37,127 bases of DNA from Candidatus Omnitrophota bacterium (GTDB lineage: Bacteria > Omnitrophota > Gorgyraeia > Ghiorseimicrobiales > Ghiorseimicrobiaceae). The position numbers and the translations under genes are program-made. The stretch lies in assembly GCA_030681595.1 (NCBI GenBank), contig JAUXSB010000008.1, forward strand, positions 153,587 through 190,713, written 5' to 3'. The notes beneath the pieces are model-generated. The model ran no database searches and was not told where the DNA came from. It saw nothing but the letters and a program-made list of their open reading frames with translations. Below are positions 23,804 through 36,539 of this stretch, piece by piece (position 1 is the stretch's first letter; each line of letters begins with the position of its first letter).

Positions 23804-25108
23804 ATGGAAAAAGCGCATAGGCGCCAAATTATTAAGAATTTTTCTAGCCTTATCTTCGCGCAGGTAATTTATAAGCTTATTTCTTTTTTTACAATGATAA
23901 TTATCGCGCGGTTTTTAGGCCCGGATAATTTCGGTATCTTTTCATATGGATTATCTTTTGTATGGTTATTTTTATTTATATCGGATTTCGGCTTTACTGA
24001 AATTTTTATACGGGATGTATCGCGCGATAAATATTTATTAAAACAATACGTAAATAACATATTTAGCCTCAAATTAATTATCGGGTCACTGGTTTTGCTA
24101 TTAATTTTTTTCTTATCCCTGCGGTTTTCTTCAGACATAAGCAAATTTTGGGTATGCTTAATCTTGGGGTTATCTGTCGTTTTTGATTCTTTTGTATATT
24201 TTTTTCGTTCGATATTCCGTGTCCGGGAAGCCATGGAAAAAGAAGCCGCGCTCACTGTTGTTGAAGCTGTTTTAAAAATTGTGGCGATATATTTTATAAT
24301 TAAAATTAAGATTGGCCTTCAATCCGTAATTTTGGTATCATTGGCTTTCCTTGCTGCAAGCACTCTAAATCTGATACTCAATACCTTGAGTTTTGTCTCT
24401 CTCTATGGTATTTTTTCTTTAACTATCAATAAAAGATTATCGGCCCAACTTCTAAAAAATTCGCTTCCGTTTGCGCTTATATATATATTAAGTCTTATTA
24501 ATTTTCGAGTTGATATTTTAATGCTTTCTTCTAAAATCGGCGACAGGGCCGCTGGATGGTTTTCGGCGAATTATAAATTGTTGGAACAGTTCTTTCTTAT
24601 CCCGATTACATTGTCTTATGTATATCTACCTATTTTTTCCCGTATCGCTTATTCTGGCGATGCCATGCATAATCTGGCGTTAAAAACAATAAAGATACTT
24701 TTGCCTGCTGGCATAGTAATCCCGGCGCTATTTTATTTTTTCGGCGGCACAATTATTTCTGTGATATACGGGGAAGAGTTTATTGAATCAGCCAAATATC
24801 TTTATATCCTCTCATTTTCGCTTTTACCATTTTTTGTAAAACCTATAATAGAAAAAGTATTTTATGCAGTGAATAGACAGTGGGTTATTTTTTCTGTATA
24901 TTTATGCGGGGCCGCGTTAAATATTTTTTTAAATTGCATTGCCATACCGAGGTGGGGCATAAACGGAGCATCTCTTTCAACCTTTTTATCAGAGTGTATT
25001 GTAATTATCGTTTCTTTTGTTATTTATTTGCGTTATCGTAAAACCGTAGGCCTTAATTATGATGCTGAGTTGCAAAATAATCTAGCAATGAATAAATTTA
25101 CTTGCTAA
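23804..25108 (+). CDS. Wzx-like polysaccharide flippase
   Basis: A 434-residue, 12-14-helix protein of the MOP/oligosaccharide flippase superfamily. The first 35 residues (NFSSLIFAQVIYKLISFFTMIIIARFLGPDNFGIFSYGLSF) are the standard opening of RfbX/Wzx proteins, and FFGGTIISVIYGEEFIESA with WGINGASLSTFLSE match later conserved blocks. It should flip an undecaprenyl-diphosphate glycan to the outer face of the inner membrane. It is preceded directly by the degenerate gene and followed by about 200 bases holding a mobile-element remnant. Substrate specificity is not readable. Confidence 0.9.
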   Translation: MEKAHRRQIIKNFSSLIFAQVIYKLISFFTMIIIARFLGPDNFGIFSYGLSFVWLFLFISDFGFTEIFIRDVSRDKYLLKQYVNNIFSLKLIIGSLVLLLIFFLSLRFSSDISKFWVCLILGLSVVFDSFVYFFRSIFRVREAMEKEAALTVVEAVLKIVAIYFIIKIKIGLQSVILVSLAFLAASTLNLILNTLSFVSLYGIFSLTINKRLSAQLLKNSLPFALIYILSLINFRVDILMLSSKIGDRAAGWFSANYKLLEQFFLIPITLSYVYLPIFSRIAYSGDAMHNLALKTIKILLPAGIVIPALFYFFGGTIISVIYGEEFIESAKYLYILSFSLLPFFVKPIIEKVFYAVNRQWVIFSVYLCGAALNIFLNCIAIPRWGINGASLSTFLSECIVIIVSFVIYLRYRKTVGLNYDAELQNNLAMNKFTC

Positions 25109-26781: not shown

Positions 26782-26889
26782 ATGTTTAGAAACCAAAATA
26801 TAATCTGCATAACAAGCATAGATTGGAATTTTATTTGGTAGCAGCACCAAACTATTGTGTCCACATTTGCTAAGAAAACAAAAAGAGCA
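26782..26889 (+). pseudogene. Decayed copy of the first 36 codons of the following GT4 gene
   Basis: From ATG 26782, 36 codons align end to end with the first 36 codons of the next gene, in the same frame and directly abutting its start at 26890. By hand count, 22 of 36 residues are identical (for example ICITSIDWNFIW against ICISSIDWDFIW). Codon 20 is TAG (26839-26841) where the intact gene has CAG. Many third positions differ, so this is not a fresh slippage product but the broken start of a diverged homologue. Confidence 0.8.
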
Positions 26890-28764
26890 ATGCTTAAGAA
26901 TGAAAATATAATCTGCATATCTTCTATTGACTGGGATTTCATCTGGCAGGGGCATCAGGAAATAATGTCCACATTCGCGAATGCCGGCAATCGGGTTTTA
27001 TTTATTGAAAATACCGGTATAAGGCCGCCTGCCTTAAGGGATATCCCCCGGATAAAAAAACGCATCGTTAATTGGTTTAAAAGCGTAAAAGGTTTTAGAA
27101 AGGAAAGGTATAATCTCTATATATATTCTCCTATATTTATTCCTTTTCCATATTCAAGATTAGCCCGATGGGCAAATAGGTACTTGATTTTATCTCATCT
27201 TAAGCGCTGGCTTAAGCTGATGAAGTTTGACAACCCTATCATCTGGACATTCTTGCCGACCCTAACCGCCTTGGATATTATCGCCAGTATAGAAAAAAAG
27301 GCCTTAGTTTATTATTACATCGCGGATTTTGACCAGTTGACGCATGATTCTAAAAAATTAAAAAAAGCCGAAGAGAGGTTAATGCGAGAATGTGATGTTA
27401 TCTTTGTCCAGGGAGAATATTTTCGCAGGAAATGTCTTAAGTGTAACAAAAATGTGTTCATATTTCCCTTTGGCGTAAGCAAAGAAATCTTCGATAATTT
27501 TAAAAATAAGGCTGATAAAATTTTTTTGGAGGATTTAGGCGGTATAAAGGGTCATATTATTGGGTATGTAGGCGGGCTACATCGCCATATAGATTTCGGG
27601 CTTATCCGTTATATTGCCCGTTCTAATCCGCAATGGTCGATAGTTTTAATCGGCCCTATACAGGAATCCTTGGACGATATAAAAGATTTAAAAAATGTGT
27701 ATTGTTTAGGCAAGAAAGATTTTACGCAGCTGCCTGCGTACATAAATCGTTTTGATGCCTGTATCGTGCCGTATATGTTAAGCGAATACACCAATACGGT
27801 ATATCCGACTAAGATAAATGAATATCATATCATGGGAAAACCGGTAGTTTCTACAAATTTACCGGAAGTTATTAAGCATGATCCTGAAAATTTAATCTTT
27901 ATCGCCAAGGATTATGAAGAATTTAGCGGCCTTATAAAAAAGGCGTTAGAAACCGCTAAAGACAAAGATGCGGTCGCTAGAAGGATTAAATCTGCCGAGA
28001 AGAATAGCTGGTATAATAGAATAGAAGAAATGAGCGGGATAATACAAACTGCCGTGGCTAATAAATCTCTTGAGGAGCCGCTCAACTGGCGCGAGAAATT
28101 CATCGGGCTATATGCAGTATCCCGGGGTAAAATAGTTAAGTTTTCCTCCGCAGCCGTCATATTGTGGCTTTTGCTATTTTATACGCCTTTAGTATGGTTT
28201 TTGGCTGAGCCGTTAAGATTTTATCAGGAGCCCAAGGTTTCAGATGCGATAGTGGTTTTTGCCGGAGGCGTAGGAGAGAGCGGGCGGCCCGGGCAGGGTT
28301 ATGAGGAAAGGGTAAAACACGCGGTAGAATTATATAAAAGAGGATTCGCAGAGAATATTATTTTTTCTTCCGGGGCAGTGAGCACATTTCCTGAGCCATA
28401 TGTGATGAAGGCGCTGGCAATATATTTGGGCGTTCCCGAAAGTGCTGTAATCATTGAAGATTTGGCGGCTAGCACTTATGAGAATGTGAAGTTTACGGAT
28501 AAGATATTAGACGCGAAAAAATGGGAAAAAATTATCCTGATAAGTTCGCCTTACCATATGCGCAGGGCAGCGCTGGTTTTTGCTAAAATCGCTCCGGAAA
28601 AGAAGATAGCATTTGTTCCGGCGAAAAGTTTATTTTACAGCCACCAGAAGAGTGAGGAGTTAGGCGGCATAAAAAAATTTAGGCAGATTGATTTGCGCCA
28701 GATTAACGGGATACTACATGAATATTTGGCGATATGCTATTATTGGGCGAAAGGTTACATTTAG
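26890..28764 (+). CDS. Fusion of GT4 glycosyltransferase and DUF218 (SanA/ElyC/YdcF-like) domain
   Basis: A 624-residue two-part protein. Residues 1-390 are a GT-B glycosyltransferase: IIWTFLPTLTALDII and VYYYIADFDQLTHDSKK on the acceptor side, GYVGGLHRHIDFGLI and the donor block YPTKINEYHIMGKPVVSTNLPEV on the other. One membrane helix follows (about 421-437, ILWLLLFYTPLVWFLAEPL). Residues 450-620 are a DUF218 domain: SDAIVVFAGGVGESGRPGQG, ERVKHAVELYKRGF, IIFSSGA, EDLAASTYENV and ILISSPYHMRRA. The helix would place DUF218 in the periplasm, where SanA and ElyC act in envelope homeostasis. The ATG at 26890 is chosen over a GTG at 26857 that lies in the decayed copy. Confidence 0.87.
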   Translation: MLKNENIICISSIDWDFIWQGHQEIMSTFANAGNRVLFIENTGIRPPALRDIPRIKKRIVNWFKSVKGFRKERYNLYIYSPIFIPFPYSRLARWANRYLILSHLKRWLKLMKFDNPIIWTFLPTLTALDIIASIEKKALVYYYIADFDQLTHDSKKLKKAEERLMRECDVIFVQGEYFRRKCLKCNKNVFIFPFGVSKEIFDNFKNKADKIFLEDLGGIKGHIIGYVGGLHRHIDFGLIRYIARSNPQWSIVLIGPIQESLDDIKDLKNVYCLGKKDFTQLPAYINRFDACIVPYMLSEYTNTVYPTKINEYHIMGKPVVSTNLPEVIKHDPENLIFIAKDYEEFSGLIKKALETAKDKDAVARRIKSAEKNSWYNRIEEMSGIIQTAVANKSLEEPLNWREKFIGLYAVSRGKIVKFSSAAVILWLLLFYTPLVWFLAEPLRFYQEPKVSDAIVVFAGGVGESGRPGQGYEERVKHAVELYKRGFAENIIFSSGAVSTFPEPYVMKALAIYLGVPESAVIIEDLAASTYENVKFTDKILDAKKWEKIILISSPYHMRRAALVFAKIAPEKKIAFVPAKSLFYSHQKSEELGGIKKFRQIDLRQINGILHEYLAICYYWAKGYI

Positions 28765-28799: not shown

Positions 28800-30002
28800 A
28801 TGAAGTTTATTGATGAAAAGGGGAGGTTGTTCGGGAAAATTAATGTGATCGATTTTCTTGTGCTTTTTTTTCTGTTTTGTTTAGTCCCCATGGTTTATTT
28901 CGGCTATAAAATATTTACAAAGCCAGCGCCCGTAGTAGAAAAAAGGGCCGATAGAAAGCTTATCGATGTTGAAATCGCCGTTTCATTTATAAAATTAAAT
29001 CCGGATATCGCGAGTCTTATTTTGGCAGGCGATAAAGAATTAGATAGTGACGGCAGCGTGACCGCGGAGATTATCAAGGTTTCCAAAATGGAGCCTTATT
29101 TTTATGAGTTCGCGCTCGATAATGACAGACAGCGGGTACTCATAAAAGACGATACTCTTAAAAAAATAAATACCGAGGTTAAATTAAAGGCCGAAGTAAG
29201 GCCGGATGGGTTATATTATAAAAATGAGAAAATCGCGGATAAACAGGTCTTTAATTTTAAAACCTCTAAATATGGCGCGGAGTTTATCCGTCAGGAAAAC
29301 TTAGAAGAAAGGGAGCTGTATTTTAATGTCGTTTTTAAAGATTTAAGCGAAGATGCCATTGCGGATATCGCAGTAGGAGATAAAGAAGCCGATAATACGG
29401 GGAGAAATATAGCAGAAATCATAAAATTAGGAAAAATTGAGAATAGCCAGATTGGAATTAATATGGGGGGAGTTAATTATGTGGCAGGCGAGGACGAGCA
29501 TAAAAAGCAGTTAGCCGCGAAAATGAAATTTTTGTGTAATTTGCGCGCAAGCAAATATGTTTATTTTAAAGATCGGCTTATGAATTTTGATATACCTTTT
29601 CAATTTAAAACTGATAAGTACAATTTAAACGGATTTTTGCTCAATAATTATTCTGAAGAAAAATGGATACGCCTAAGGGTTAAATTTTCCGGTTTAGTTT
29701 CTGATGTGGCTAGCGTAATTCAAAAAGGAGATACGGAACGAATAGTTAACGGGCAGGCAGTCGCCATGATAGAAAAGATTATAAGCAATAAACCTGCCGA
29801 GGTGTTATCTTTAAATAACGGTGTCTTTATTGCGCTCAGCCACCCGTTTAATATGGATATAGAGGCATCATTGAATGTATTATGCGTTGAAAAAGATGGC
29901 GCATACTATTTTAAAAATTATCCGGTAAAAATCGGAAATAGTATTAATTTTAGCCCGGAATTTTATTCGGTAGTAGGGATAATCGTCAGAGTAGGCGAGT
30001 GA
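28800..30002 (+). CDS. DUF4330 protein with three tandem repeats
   Basis: A 400-residue protein that opens with the DUF4330 signature MKFIDEKGRLFGKINVIDFL and one membrane helix (about 18-38). The remaining 350 residues form three diverged repeats of about 105 residues (roughly 55-158, 172-275, 289-395). Each begins with an amphipathic strand (IDVEIAVSF, ELYFNVVFK, WIRLRVKFS), has I..GDKE followed by an acidic G turn and an A-I-I-K segment, and ends with a [YF]xK aromatic block (YYKNEK, YFKDRL, YYFKNY). The repeats lie outside the membrane. Function unknown; DUF4330 proteins often lie in envelope polysaccharide loci. A GAAAGGGGATAG Shine-Dalgarno is present. Confidence 0.85.
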   Translation: MKFIDEKGRLFGKINVIDFLVLFFLFCLVPMVYFGYKIFTKPAPVVEKRADRKLIDVEIAVSFIKLNPDIASLILAGDKELDSDGSVTAEIIKVSKMEPYFYEFALDNDRQRVLIKDDTLKKINTEVKLKAEVRPDGLYYKNEKIADKQVFNFKTSKYGAEFIRQENLEERELYFNVVFKDLSEDAIADIAVGDKEADNTGRNIAEIIKLGKIENSQIGINMGGVNYVAGEDEHKKQLAAKMKFLCNLRASKYVYFKDRLMNFDIPFQFKTDKYNLNGFLLNNYSEEKWIRLRVKFSGLVSDVASVIQKGDTERIVNGQAVAMIEKIISNKPAEVLSLNNGVFIALSHPFNMDIEASLNVLCVEKDGAYYFKNYPVKIGNSINFSPEFYSVVGIIVRVGE

Positions 30003-30004
30003 TT

Positions 30005-30580
30005 ATGCTAAGGCCAGCGTTAGATACGAGCGTTAGTTTAGTATTGCCAAAACTTATATTTAAATATGTCAAATTTATTTATAAGGGAATAGTTTCTTTA
30101 TATAAAAATAGCCTGATACGCCGGTTATCCGGTAGATTTAGCGAAAAAATAATAACGTACTTTACTTATAGTATTTTTGGTTCAATTACCCAAAGAAAAA
30201 ATACGGAATATCTTGTTTTATACAATAGCCGCCTGGCGTTATTTTTTATGAATTGCGGCAAGAGGTATAAAAATGGGTTATTAGGTTATTCAAGCATAAG
30301 TAAAACGGTAAGGCAGATAAAATCGATTAAGGCGGATTTTATTCTTTCGCCATTGCGGATAATCGGCATTATGATTATTAGCGCTGTTGCCGCGAATATT
30401 TTCTTAAATATTCTTTTTAATAACGATGTTTCGCTATTAGGCTGGATGACGCGATGCATGTTTATTGTAGTGGGGATTATTGGCGCCTCTTGCAAGACAG
30501 ATTTGCAGGCACTTAAGAACGGTAGTTTTATAGTAAAGAAAATTTTTAGCCCAATATGTGCGGAATTTGCGGAAAAATAA
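30005..30580 (+). CDS. Two-TM protein of unknown function
   Basis: I do not recognise this 191-residue protein. The first 115 residues are basic and soluble (SLYKNSLIRRLSGRFSEKII, SISKTVRQIKSIKADFILSP); two hydrophobic helices follow (about 118-136 and 148-165). It is sandwiched between the DUF4330 gene, which it overlaps or nearly touches (GTG at 29999 or ATG at 30005), and the asparagine-synthase-like gene, which starts 25 bases before it ends. The tight coupling implies a shared role. The ATG is preferred over the GTG because the GTG overlaps the previous stop; either is possible. Confidence 0.65.
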   Translation: MLRPALDTSVSLVLPKLIFKYVKFIYKGIVSLYKNSLIRRLSGRFSEKIITYFTYSIFGSITQRKNTEYLVLYNSRLALFFMNCGKRYKNGLLGYSSISKTVRQIKSIKADFILSPLRIIGIMIISAVAANIFLNILFNNDVSLLGWMTRCMFIVVGIIGASCKTDLQALKNGSFIVKKIFSPICAEFAEK

Positions 30581-32463
30581 GCCTTAATGCGGGCGAAGTG
30601 GACCGAAATGTAATTCAAAGAATGACCGATGTGCTTGCGCATCGCGGCCCGGATGAAGAAGGGGTATACCTATCAGGAGGGATTAGCCAAAATTCGCCTG
30701 TTAGGGTCGCGTTAGGGCACAGGAGATTAAAGATTATTGATTTGTCGTCTAACGGGCATCAGCCGATGGGCAATGAAGACGGCTCTGTATGGATAGCCTA
30801 TAACGGGGAGATTTATAATTTTAAAGAACTGCGCGCTGAATTAGAAGAAAAGAAGCATATTTTTAAATCAAATACCGATACAGAAGTCATCGTTCATCTT
30901 TATGAAGAGTTGGGCGTTGATTGCGTAAAGCATTTAAGGGGGATGTTCGCGTTTGCCATATGGGATAAGAAAAAAGAGCGTTTATTCCTCGCGCGGGATA
31001 GGTTAGGCAAGAAGCCTTTAAATTACGCCTACAAAAATGGAAGTTTGATATTTTCTTCAGAAATAAGGCCGATATTAGAAGATCCATCGATTAGCCGCAG
31101 CGTAAAAATAGAATCACTGCATAATTATCTTAGCTATCTATATGTGCCTTGCCCTGAGACGATGTTTGAGGGGATAAATAAACTTGCGCCCGCGCATATT
31201 TTAGTTTGGGAAAAAGGCGAGATTAAAATAGAGAAGTATTGGAGTTTAAGCTACGCCAAAAAAATAAAAATGCCGCAGGAGGAATATTGCCAAAAAATAT
31301 TAGAGCTCTTTACTGACGCGATAAAGGCTAGGTTAATAAGCGATGTGCCCTTAGGCGTATTTTTAAGCGGCGGAATAGATTCGTCGGCGGTAGTGGCATT
31401 GATGAGCAAGGTTTTAAATAGGCCGGTTAAGACTTTTTCTATAGGTTTTAACGAAGCTTCTTTTAATGAGCTTAGATACGCGCGTATAGTCGCTAATACT
31501 TTTTGTACGGAGCATAAAGAGTATGTTGTGACGCCAAAAGCCTTAGATATTTTGCCGAAATTAATCAGGCATTTTGGCGAGCCCTTTGCTGATTCTTCAA
31601 GTATCCCGGAATATTATCTTTCTATGCTTGCGCGTAAGGATGTGACTGTCGCGTTAAGCGGAGATGCCGGAGATGAGCTGTTTGCTGGTTATGACCGGTA
31701 TGCGGCGAATAAACTGGCAGGATATTATAGCTCATTTCCTCGTTTATTTCGTAATCGGATCAGCCGTTTTCTGGAAAAATTTCCCGAATCAACGGCTAAA
31801 AAGGGTATTATTAAGAGAATCAAGCGATTTATTAATGCCAGTGATTTACCGAAAGAGAAAAGATACGCTGCGTGGGTATCGGCTTTTGACAATGTATTAA
31901 AAGAAAAAATTTATTCCCGCCAGATGCAAGAGCGCTTAGAAAACATTGATTCCTGCGATTATATCTTAGATATGTATCGTAAATCGGACGCGGTAGACTT
32001 TATAGATTCAACGTTATTTGTAGATACTATGACATACCTGCCGAATGACTTATTGGTAAAGGTTGATATTGTTTCTATGGCAAACTCTTTGGAAGTACGT
32101 TCGCCATTTTTGGACCATAAATTAGTAGAATTTGCCGCGCAGATTCCTTCTTCCTTGAAATTAAAAGGGTTAACTACGAAGTATATCTTAAAACAGGCAT
32201 TAAGAAAATTGCTTCCTAGAGAGATTATACAGCGTAGAAAAGAAGGCTTTGGAGTACCTGTCGGGCGATGGTTTCAGAATGAGATTAAAGACTACGCCTA
32301 TAACTTATTATTAAGTAAGCCTAGTATCGGGAGGGGCTATTTTAGGCCGGAGGCAATCAGAGAGATGTTTAATGAGCATATAAGCGGAAAGATTGACCAC
32401 GGGCAACGCATTTGGATTTTGTTAAATTTGGAGCTTTGGCATCAGGCGTTTATCGATAAATAA
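30556..32463 (+). CDS. asnB: Asparagine synthase-like glutamine amidotransferase
   Basis: A 635-residue protein starting MCGICG, so Cys2 is the N-terminal nucleophile of a class II glutaminase domain (AHRGPDEEG, YNGEIYNFKELR, then EVIVHLYEELG). The synthetase domain has the PP-loop SGGIDSS (271-277), SGDAGDELFAGYDRY and LEVRSPFLDHKLVEF. It matches AsnB in full length. In polysaccharide loci AsnB paralogues often amidate uronic acids or other sugar or lipid carboxylates rather than aspartate, so the symbol refers to the family only. It starts inside the end of the unknown two-TM gene. Confidence 0.9.
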   Translation: MCGICGKISLNAGEVDRNVIQRMTDVLAHRGPDEEGVYLSGGISQNSPVRVALGHRRLKIIDLSSNGHQPMGNEDGSVWIAYNGEIYNFKELRAELEEKKHIFKSNTDTEVIVHLYEELGVDCVKHLRGMFAFAIWDKKKERLFLARDRLGKKPLNYAYKNGSLIFSSEIRPILEDPSISRSVKIESLHNYLSYLYVPCPETMFEGINKLAPAHILVWEKGEIKIEKYWSLSYAKKIKMPQEEYCQKILELFTDAIKARLISDVPLGVFLSGGIDSSAVVALMSKVLNRPVKTFSIGFNEASFNELRYARIVANTFCTEHKEYVVTPKALDILPKLIRHFGEPFADSSSIPEYYLSMLARKDVTVALSGDAGDELFAGYDRYAANKLAGYYSSFPRLFRNRISRFLEKFPESTAKKGIIKRIKRFINASDLPKEKRYAAWVSAFDNVLKEKIYSRQMQERLENIDSCDYILDMYRKSDAVDFIDSTLFVDTMTYLPNDLLVKVDIVSMANSLEVRSPFLDHKLVEFAAQIPSSLKLKGLTTKYILKQALRKLLPREIIQRRKEGFGVPVGRWFQNEIKDYAYNLLLSKPSIGRGYFRPEAIREMFNEHISGKIDHGQRIWILLNLELWHQAFIDK

Positions 32464-34694: not shown

Positions 34695-36539
34695 ATGCAG
34701 CCTATTTACTATAAACTATTTTTTTACTCTTTTTTTCTATCTTTTATTATCACGCCATTGATTCGTTATCTGGCGCTTAAGTTTAATTTTGTTTCATACC
34801 CCAAAGAAGACCGTTGGCATAAGAAGCCCACGGCTATTTTTGGCGGGGTAGCCATATTTATCGCAGCCGTAATCCCGCTATTTTTTATAGCGGATTTTGG
34901 TAACCGCCAGCTTTCCGGTTTTATTTTAGGCATATTTATAATGTTTATCTGCGGCATAATAGACGATATCAAAAAATTAGCGCCTCAGGTAAAAATATTA
35001 TTTCAGATAGTCGCAAGTTGTGTAATAATTTATTTTGGGATTAGCATTAAAATAAATCCTGTTTACTTTTCTAGTTTGCCGGATGTCGCGGCTAAATTGA
35101 TTGATTTACTGGTTATTCCTCTTACTATACTCTGGGTGGTGGGCATCACTAATGCTTTTAATTTGTTGGATAATATGGACGGCCTTGCCGTAGGGATAGC
35201 CGCGATATCTTCGCTTATGCTATTTTTTTCAGGAATATTCATCGGCAGTGTTAATATCCCGATTATCGCCATAGGGTTGGCAGGCGCCTGCTTTGGTTTT
35301 TTGCCTTATAATTTTAATCCAGCCAAGATATTTATGGGCGATTCAGGCAGTATGTTTTTGGGATTTTGCCTATCTTCAGTTGCCTTAATGGGCACGGGTG
35401 CCAGGACGTTTTCGAACCTATTAATTACTTTAGCCATACCGCTGCTTATCTTAGTTGTTCCGATATTCGATACGGCATTAGTTACGCTTATGCGTAGTTT
35501 TAACGGTAAATCGATACTAAAAGGCGGCAAAGACCATGCTTCTCATCGGCTTGTGGCTTTAGGGCTATCGGAAAAAAAGACGGTACTCCTTTTGTACCTT
35601 GTAAGTATATTGTTTGGCGTGATTGCTTTGGCTTATTCAAAACTTGACGCGCTAGTTGTTTCTATCTTGGCAATTTTAACCCTGATTGTGCTTTTATTTT
35701 TCGGAAAGTTTCTCTGCGAGGTAAAGTCTTATCCGACGAATGAAGGGATGGCTGCCGCGCGTAATGGAAAAATAAAAGAAGAGAAAGTTATCTTAAATAC
35801 AGTAATACTCCATAAAGGAAAAATTTTAGAAATATTGGTTGATTTTTTGCTTATCTGTATTTCGTATTATTCGGCGTATCTATTGCGTTTTGAGGGAGTT
35901 TTGTCTGACCATAATTACTACCTTCTCAAGACTACTTTACCATGGATTATCGTTATAAAGCTTGTATGTTTCTACTATTTTAATCTTTATGGCGGTATAT
36001 GGCATTTTACAGGCATGAGTGATTTTGTTTCCGTGTTTAAGGCGGTTACTATCGGGTCTGCGCTGAGCACGCTATATATTACTTTCGCGGACAGATTTAA
36101 AGACCACTCTAGGGTTATAATTATATTGGACTGGATGTTGACAGTTTTTTTCATATCTTTTGCCAGATTTATCTATCGTTTTCTGCAGGAGTATTTTTAT
36201 GGGTATAAACAAGGCAAGCGGATTTTGATTTTTGGAGCCGGTGCTTGCGGTGAATTATTTTTAAGGGAAATAAAATATAATAAAATACTTAATTACAAGC
36301 CCGTTGGCTTTATCGATGATGATAAAAAAAAGAATGGTAAAGCTATACATGGGTTAAAAATATTAGGCGCACGAAAAGATTTGGGGCGCTTTATAAAAGA
36401 AGAGAATATTGAGGAGGTAATCATAACGGTACCTTCTTTAGGCAAAGAAAGCTGCAGTGATATCTTGGAAACCTGCAGCCGGCTTAATATCGTGTGTAGA
36501 AGTATTACGAAAATAATGGATATTGAAAGATGGGCTTAA
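34695..36539 (+). CDS. Fusion of WecA/MraY-type phosphoglycosyl transferase and CapD/WbpM N-terminal half
   Basis: A 614-residue protein. Residues 1-340 form the polytopic glycan-initiating transferase (WecA/TagO/RgpG group): IIDDIKK with Asp90-Asp91, NLLDNMDGLAVG (156-167), FMGDSGSM (213-220) and the HASHR loop (281-285). After a linker of about 35 residues come four membrane helices and a Rossmann domain (KRILIFGAGACGE, about 508-520, FIDDDKKKNG) matching the membrane and CoA-binding-like regions of CapD/WbpM/PglF. The catalytic SDR half of those dehydratases is missing; the protein ends at MDIERWA, where that domain would begin. It begins 3 bases after the SDR gene. The first half should attach a sugar-1-phosphate to undecaprenyl phosphate. 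Confidence 0.88.
   Translation: MQPIYYKLFFYSFFLSFIITPLIRYLALKFNFVSYPKEDRWHKKPTAIFGGVAIFIAAVIPLFFIADFGNRQLSGFILGIFIMFICGIIDDIKKLAPQVKILFQIVASCVIIYFGISIKINPVYFSSLPDVAAKLIDLLVIPLTILWVVGITNAFNLLDNMDGLAVGIAAISSLMLFFSGIFIGSVNIPIIAIGLAGACFGFLPYNFNPAKIFMGDSGSMFLGFCLSSVALMGTGARTFSNLLITLAIPLLILVVPIFDTALVTLMRSFNGKSILKGGKDHASHRLVALGLSEKKTVLLLYLVSILFGVIALAYSKLDALVVSILAILTLIVLLFFGKFLCEVKSYPTNEGMAAARNGKIKEEKVILNTVILHKGKILEILVDFLLICISYYSAYLLRFEGVLSDHNYYLLKTTLPWIIVIKLVCFYYFNLYGGIWHFTGMSDFVSVFKAVTIGSALSTLYITFADRFKDHSRVIIILDWMLTVFFISFARFIYRFLQEYFYGYKQGKRILIFGAGACGELFLREIKYNKILNYKPVGFIDDDKKKNGKAIHGLKILGARKDLGRFIKEENIEEVIITVPSLGKESCSDILETCSRLNIVCRSITKIMDIERWA

Follow-up and report, generated by a model that had tools for sequence, protein, structure and literature searches.

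A glycosyltransferase joined to a DUF218 domain through one membrane helix, conserved in many uncultured bacteria

What does a DUF218 domain work on, and what does it mean when one is joined to a glycosyltransferase? The DUF218 proteins ElyC and SanA shape the balance between envelope glycans and peptidoglycan in E. coli, and a 2026 paper names the mechanism of SanA as an unanswered question (PMC13251401). A fusion of DUF218 to a transferase, conserved in many uncultured bacteria, offers a direct way to address what the domain works on. Such a fusion is encoded in the stretch of 37,127 nucleotides analysed here (the window), which belongs to a draft genome of a Candidatus Omnitrophota bacterium. 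The component domain kinds are known, but no description of the transferase-helix-DUF218 architecture was found in the literature searched on DUF218, SanA/ElyC and Omnitrophota transferases, a search with most subscription journals and all bioRxiv preprints outside its scope.

One frame with a transferase, a membrane helix and a complete DUF218 domain

GT-B transferase, single membrane helix and full DUF218 domain together form one polypeptide and are conserved as a unit (Table 1). The frame is uninterrupted. In the relatives' frames and in the alignment the start corresponds to the ATG at 26890, which is likely the true start rather than the GTG at 26857; this agrees with the originally predicted frame of 624 residues. 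Directly upstream, the beginning of the gene family recurs in degenerate form and in frame with the GTG; this copy looks like the remnant of a lost or recombined relative. Both Pfam domains were scored in all 64 members of alignment A1 (the window protein, 62 loci and L004; A2 and A3 were also made without L004), so that the predicted joining of a GT4-type transferase to DUF218 via one helix is borne out.

Table 1. Features of the fusion gene and its surroundings in the window.
Feature	Position	Strand	Basis or remark
Wzx-like flippase candidate	23804..25108	+	Pfam Polysacc_synt; NCBIfam Wzx_EPS below cut-off
Degenerate second copy of gene-family start	26782..26877		About 32 codons; in-frame TAG
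Whole fusion frame	26857..28764	+	635 aa from GTG; 624 aa from ATG 26890
GT-B glycosyltransferase half, residues 1-393	26890..28068	+	Pfam Glyco_trans_1_4; TuaH model below cut-off; fold matches
Linker and single membrane helix, residues 394-445	28069..28224	+	Hydropathy, charge, modelled helices
DUF218 domain, residues 452-614	28243..28731	+	Pfam; separately folded model matches YdcF
DUF4330 protein	28800..30002	+	Pfam; often next gene in relatives
Small predicted membrane protein	29999..30580		Two genes past the fusion; no Pfam or NCBIfam match
Asparagine-synthase-type amidotransferase of glycan clusters	30556..32463	+	Pfam/NCBIfam; recurrent cluster
WecA-like sugar-phosphate transferase joined to CoA_binding_3	34695..36539	+	Pfam Glycos_transf_4 and CoA_binding_3

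In the transferase half, Glyco_trans_1_4 was matched at residues 223-354 (E 1.6e-10, 41.8 bits against a cut-off of 27), and fold matches were obtained to sucrose-phosphate synthase, MshA, GumK, BshA, PimA and PglA (Z 27 to 31). The Pfam score and the GT-B fold place this half with GT4-type enzymes. Two glutamates are expected in the EX7E motif of these transferases; E311 is invariant, but the consensus at the position eight residues earlier is T or N. The label GT4 thus fits by domain and fold but is approximate. A Phmmer search of the PDB with the whole protein returned a single row (E 0.96), which was judged to be a chance match.

The list from the whole-protein fold search was filled by the transferase, and the DUF218 half was therefore folded separately, with the helix and without the transferase (pLDDT 92.4). 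DUF218 (PF02698) was matched at E 1.4e-26 over its full profile (1-133), with 93.4 bits against a cut-off of 27.6. The model resembled E. coli YdcF (PDB 3ca8; Z 16.2, rmsd 3.0, 179 residues), the next rows reaching Z of 12.7 or lower. YdcF was not among the best 50 Foldseek matches and was found by a second structure comparison; a sequence-profile match to it was obtained at E 4.1e-4.

With SanA and ElyC aligned in, R69, T125, H149 and R152 of SanA fell on R474, T529, H556 and R559 of the fusion, and T165, H189 and R192 of ElyC on the last three of these. R474 is kept in 63 of the 64 members, T529 in 60, H556 in 55 and R559 in all 64; eight members have Asn in place of H556. SanA E182 was placed by MAFFT against G607, with the invariant E611 four residues further on, and has no sure counterpart. 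In a study of SanA, the T125A, H149A and E182A mutants were unable to complement, the exported protein functioned from the periplasm, and the triad phenotype was interpreted as enzymatic (PMC12176290). In a second study, function was also destroyed by R152E and by changes in the pocket, which is predicted to face the membrane helix (PMC13251401).

The window protein has one hydrophobic segment (19-residue windows starting at residues 415-424), its hydrophobic part running from about 415 to 442; helices were modelled at 400-431 and 434-442. Exactly one segment exceeded the hydropathy threshold in 47 of the 64 members, none in 11, two in 5 and three in 1. Over the same members the mean net charge is +4.5 at residues 400-420 and -0.4 at 440-455. 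This pattern follows the positive-inside rule and points to an N-in/C-out orientation. By hydropathy and charge the DUF218 half is predicted to be periplasmic and the transferase cytoplasmic, a topology that fits the one first proposed.

Distribution and history of the two halves

Among 77 loci in public genomes, sorted by hand, both halves are present in 69, six run into a contig end (L064, L069, L070, L078, L079, L081) and two carry the transferase only (L060, L067). Seven of the 69 stand outside A1: L020 (whose values match those of L021), L027, L038, L052, L062, L072 (cut/partial) and L055. When 384 genomes of the window's phylum were sampled, 61 gave a match at E <= 1e-60. In 55 of these, again sorted by hand, the fusion spans query residues 1 to 569 or more; in one (G164) it is split between two contigs, and five contain transferase-type relatives only. 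Record titles name Omnitrophota, Acidobacteria, Methylomirabilota, Rokuibacteriota, Nitrospinota, Chloroflexi, Cyanobacteria and others; nearly all records are metagenome bins, and isolated odd titles may reflect misbinning. Two members, L031 (2227-5247) and L077 (7017-9857), have three domains, with a NodB-type polysaccharide-deacetylase domain encoded in the same frame ahead of the transferase and DUF218.

A DUF218 match was obtained in 56 of 193 sampled genomes of the phylum, and the only one in the source genome is the fusion itself. Some genomes of this phylum, L094 and L095 among them, have DUF218 matches inside very long open frames, the longest reaching 22,400 aa.

In the three scorable close pairs (L063, L065, L066) purifying selection acts on each half, with dN/dS of 0.11 to 0.27, which rules out a pseudogene. 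The original prediction was open to two objections, a missed frameshift and a lack of other examples. Frames of equal length in independent genomes, together with purifying selection, dispose of the former, and the counts given above of the latter.

The nearest named relative of the window protein is L005, at 83% identity. Between window 26890-28761 and L005 8001-9869, the transferase is 89% and the DUF218 half 73% identical. The DUF218 half has more synonymous change, and third-position identity drops after about residue 480. The dN/dS was 0.088 in the transferase half; the DUF218 half is saturated at synonymous sites and hence gave no ratio. The contrast hints at recombination of one half or at a faster-changing stretch.

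The two halves share a distance history, with a correlation of r 0.63 between their distances (none of 2000 permutations was as high). The fusion looks old. Within the transferase, two parts correlate more strongly (r 0.83), and some exchange between the halves is thus possible. In a quick tree of the transferase half, with 24 of 66 inner branches open, two distant transferase-only paralogues (L097 and the second copy of L059) stand apart from every other row. L060 lies within a starred set of 10 rows together with the window and eight other fusions. Because it is nested among fusions, L060 most likely lost DUF218 and retained the transferase and its neighbours; no DUF218 match was found in its genome, a bin of unstated completeness. 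L067 ends just past the conserved Trp that opens the linker, which suggests loss of DUF218 there as well. The divergent, transferase-only L096 is likewise placed among the fusions; its branch is long and its position unsure.

Surface-glycan clusters and the role of the DUF218 half

The fusion is located in surface-glycan gene clusters. The WecA-like protein of the window likely starts a lipid-linked glycan. Other neighbours in the window are a B12-type radical SAM protein, a small membrane protein, a second transferase and an epimerase-type enzyme. Across 80 stretches, the recurrent clusters were an stp2-like transferase (46), the amidotransferase (31), an epimerase (29) and the WecA-like protein (28). 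A polysaccharide deacetylase was present in 21, in 11 of them just before the fusion, and DUF4330 in 17, in 14 of them just after it. These tallies come from a home-made frame caller and clustering, with many stretches ended by contig ends and some frames on the wrong strand, and they include near copies, as L003 and L005 are apparently the same genome. Stand-alone DUF218 genes occur in glycan clusters of L090 and L091.

Three further observations concern these neighbourhoods. The small membrane protein two genes past the fusion keeps its position in several relatives. The WecA-like/CoA_binding_3 protein is without its usual catalytic partner domain, and this form recurs in relatives, e.g. L073. 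An XrtA/PEP-CTERM cluster was rejected, since neighbours scored 636.7 of 816.9 bits for TIGR03108 and 148.7 of 409 for TIGR03088; the source genome has an exosortase on another contig.

The conserved fusion, the WecA-like initiator in the cluster and the stand-alone DUF218 genes make a link between DUF218 and lipid-linked glycan assembly well supported by genomics. The original prediction had hinted that DUF218 acts on the same glycan as the transferase: the functional link to glycan assembly is supported, and direct action on the transferase's own product is something we infer. The reading we favour, though tentatively and short of an even chance, is a bitopic two-sided protein in which the DUF218 half works on the transferase's lipid-linked glycan, or on its carrier, once flipping has taken place. 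On the inner leaflet, the transferase would extend a WecA-primed intermediate, linked to undecaprenyl diphosphate, by a sugar. Once this was flipped, the DUF218 pocket near the outer leaflet would bind or process the same lipid-linked glycan or the spent carrier, keeping the supply of glycan and of carrier in step with their use. The fusion would tie an otherwise freestanding partner of the ElyC/SanA type to one pathway.

The conservation of both domains across members, loci and genomes, the positive-inside charge, the correlation between the halves, the kept pocket residues, the WecA-like initiator, the GumK/PglA-like fold, the stand-alone DUF218 genes of L090 and L091 and the deacetylase fusions of L031 and L077 speak for this two-sided model. 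Against it stand L060 without DUF218, Asn for H556 in eight members, the unsure counterpart of SanA E182, the 11 members without a hydrophobic segment over threshold, and the lower correlation between the halves than within the transferase.

In a more specific form, which is possible but doubtful, the DUF218 half would be a periplasmic enzyme whose substrate is the lipid-linked glycan that the attached transferase produces. It might, for instance, trim, release or re-charge this glycan and so allow the carrier to be recycled. If this enzyme reading were true, the fusion family would show what class of substrate the whole ElyC/SanA family handles, and in the deacetylase-transferase-DUF218 members successive steps would be arranged along a single polypeptide.

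The conserved pocket would also suit a periplasmic sensor, which on binding finished or surplus glycan outside would signal through the helix and slow sugar addition by the fused transferase inside. The short linker and the long modelled helices running from the transferase into the membrane helix agree with this. So does ElyC: the protein is reported to inhibit synthesis of the phosphoglyceride-linked form of ECA, an undecaprenyl-made glycan, and is proposed to exert feedback on ECA synthesis from the level of periplasmic cyclic ECA (PMC8609368). However, one bitopic helix would transmit a signal poorly unless dimerised, and the SanA triad phenotype was read as enzymatic (PMC12176290); a sensor is rather unlikely.

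L060, which manages without DUF218, suggests that the transferase step itself can do without it. This, and adjoining genes with membrane segments such as DUF4330, would suit a scaffold or anchor by which the transferase is held at the membrane as part of an assembly complex and which makes no use of its own pocket. But the pocket residues are conserved in 55 to 64 of the 64 members, which disfavours a mere anchor, and both halves are under purifying selection in the scorable close pairs; such a role is improbable. Very improbable is that the halves serve unrelated steps and came together through an accident of genome history. Losing one half is possible (L060, L067), but the fusion has been retained in many lineages and under many phylum labels, and its conservation inside glycan clusters favours a shared pathway. 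A sequencing, assembly or frameshift artefact can practically be set aside, for the source genome is a draft of 72 contigs but the same unbroken architecture is present in 69 of 77 loci and in 55 of 384 genomes.

The conserved fusion links a single DUF218 lineage with a single transferase and a single glycan cluster. This reduces the search for a substrate from the envelope as a whole to one pathway, and the halves are separable for assay.

Comparison with known proteins

On the transferase side, the best NCBIfam model is that of TuaH, a teichuronic acid transferase (NF047676). Its score of 120 bits is far under the cut-off of 550, so membership was rejected, and the model has no helix or DUF218 part. 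The solved GT-B transferases GumK and PglA, which work on lipid-linked acceptors, share the fold (Z 29.2 and 27.6), matched over residues 3-390 only, whereas identity is 16% and 14% and neither has a DUF218 half.

On the DUF218 side, YdcF shares the fold, but at 15% identity; it lacks a transferase and is predicted to be cytoplasmic (PMC12176290). ElyC (b0920), tied to ECA and lipid-carrier use, is alike in its DUF218 domain and its context of glycan assembly. It differs in having two membrane helices and no transferase (PMC8609368), and the fusion scores 22.4 of 205 bits with the NCBIfam ElyC equivalog, too low for membership. The E. coli protein SanA (b2144), bitopic and periplasmic, likewise carries DUF218 behind one membrane helix, and four of its pocket residues have counterparts in the fusion. 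It lacks the transferase half, and with 21.5 of 363 bits for the NCBIfam SanA model the fusion is not assigned to that equivalog either.
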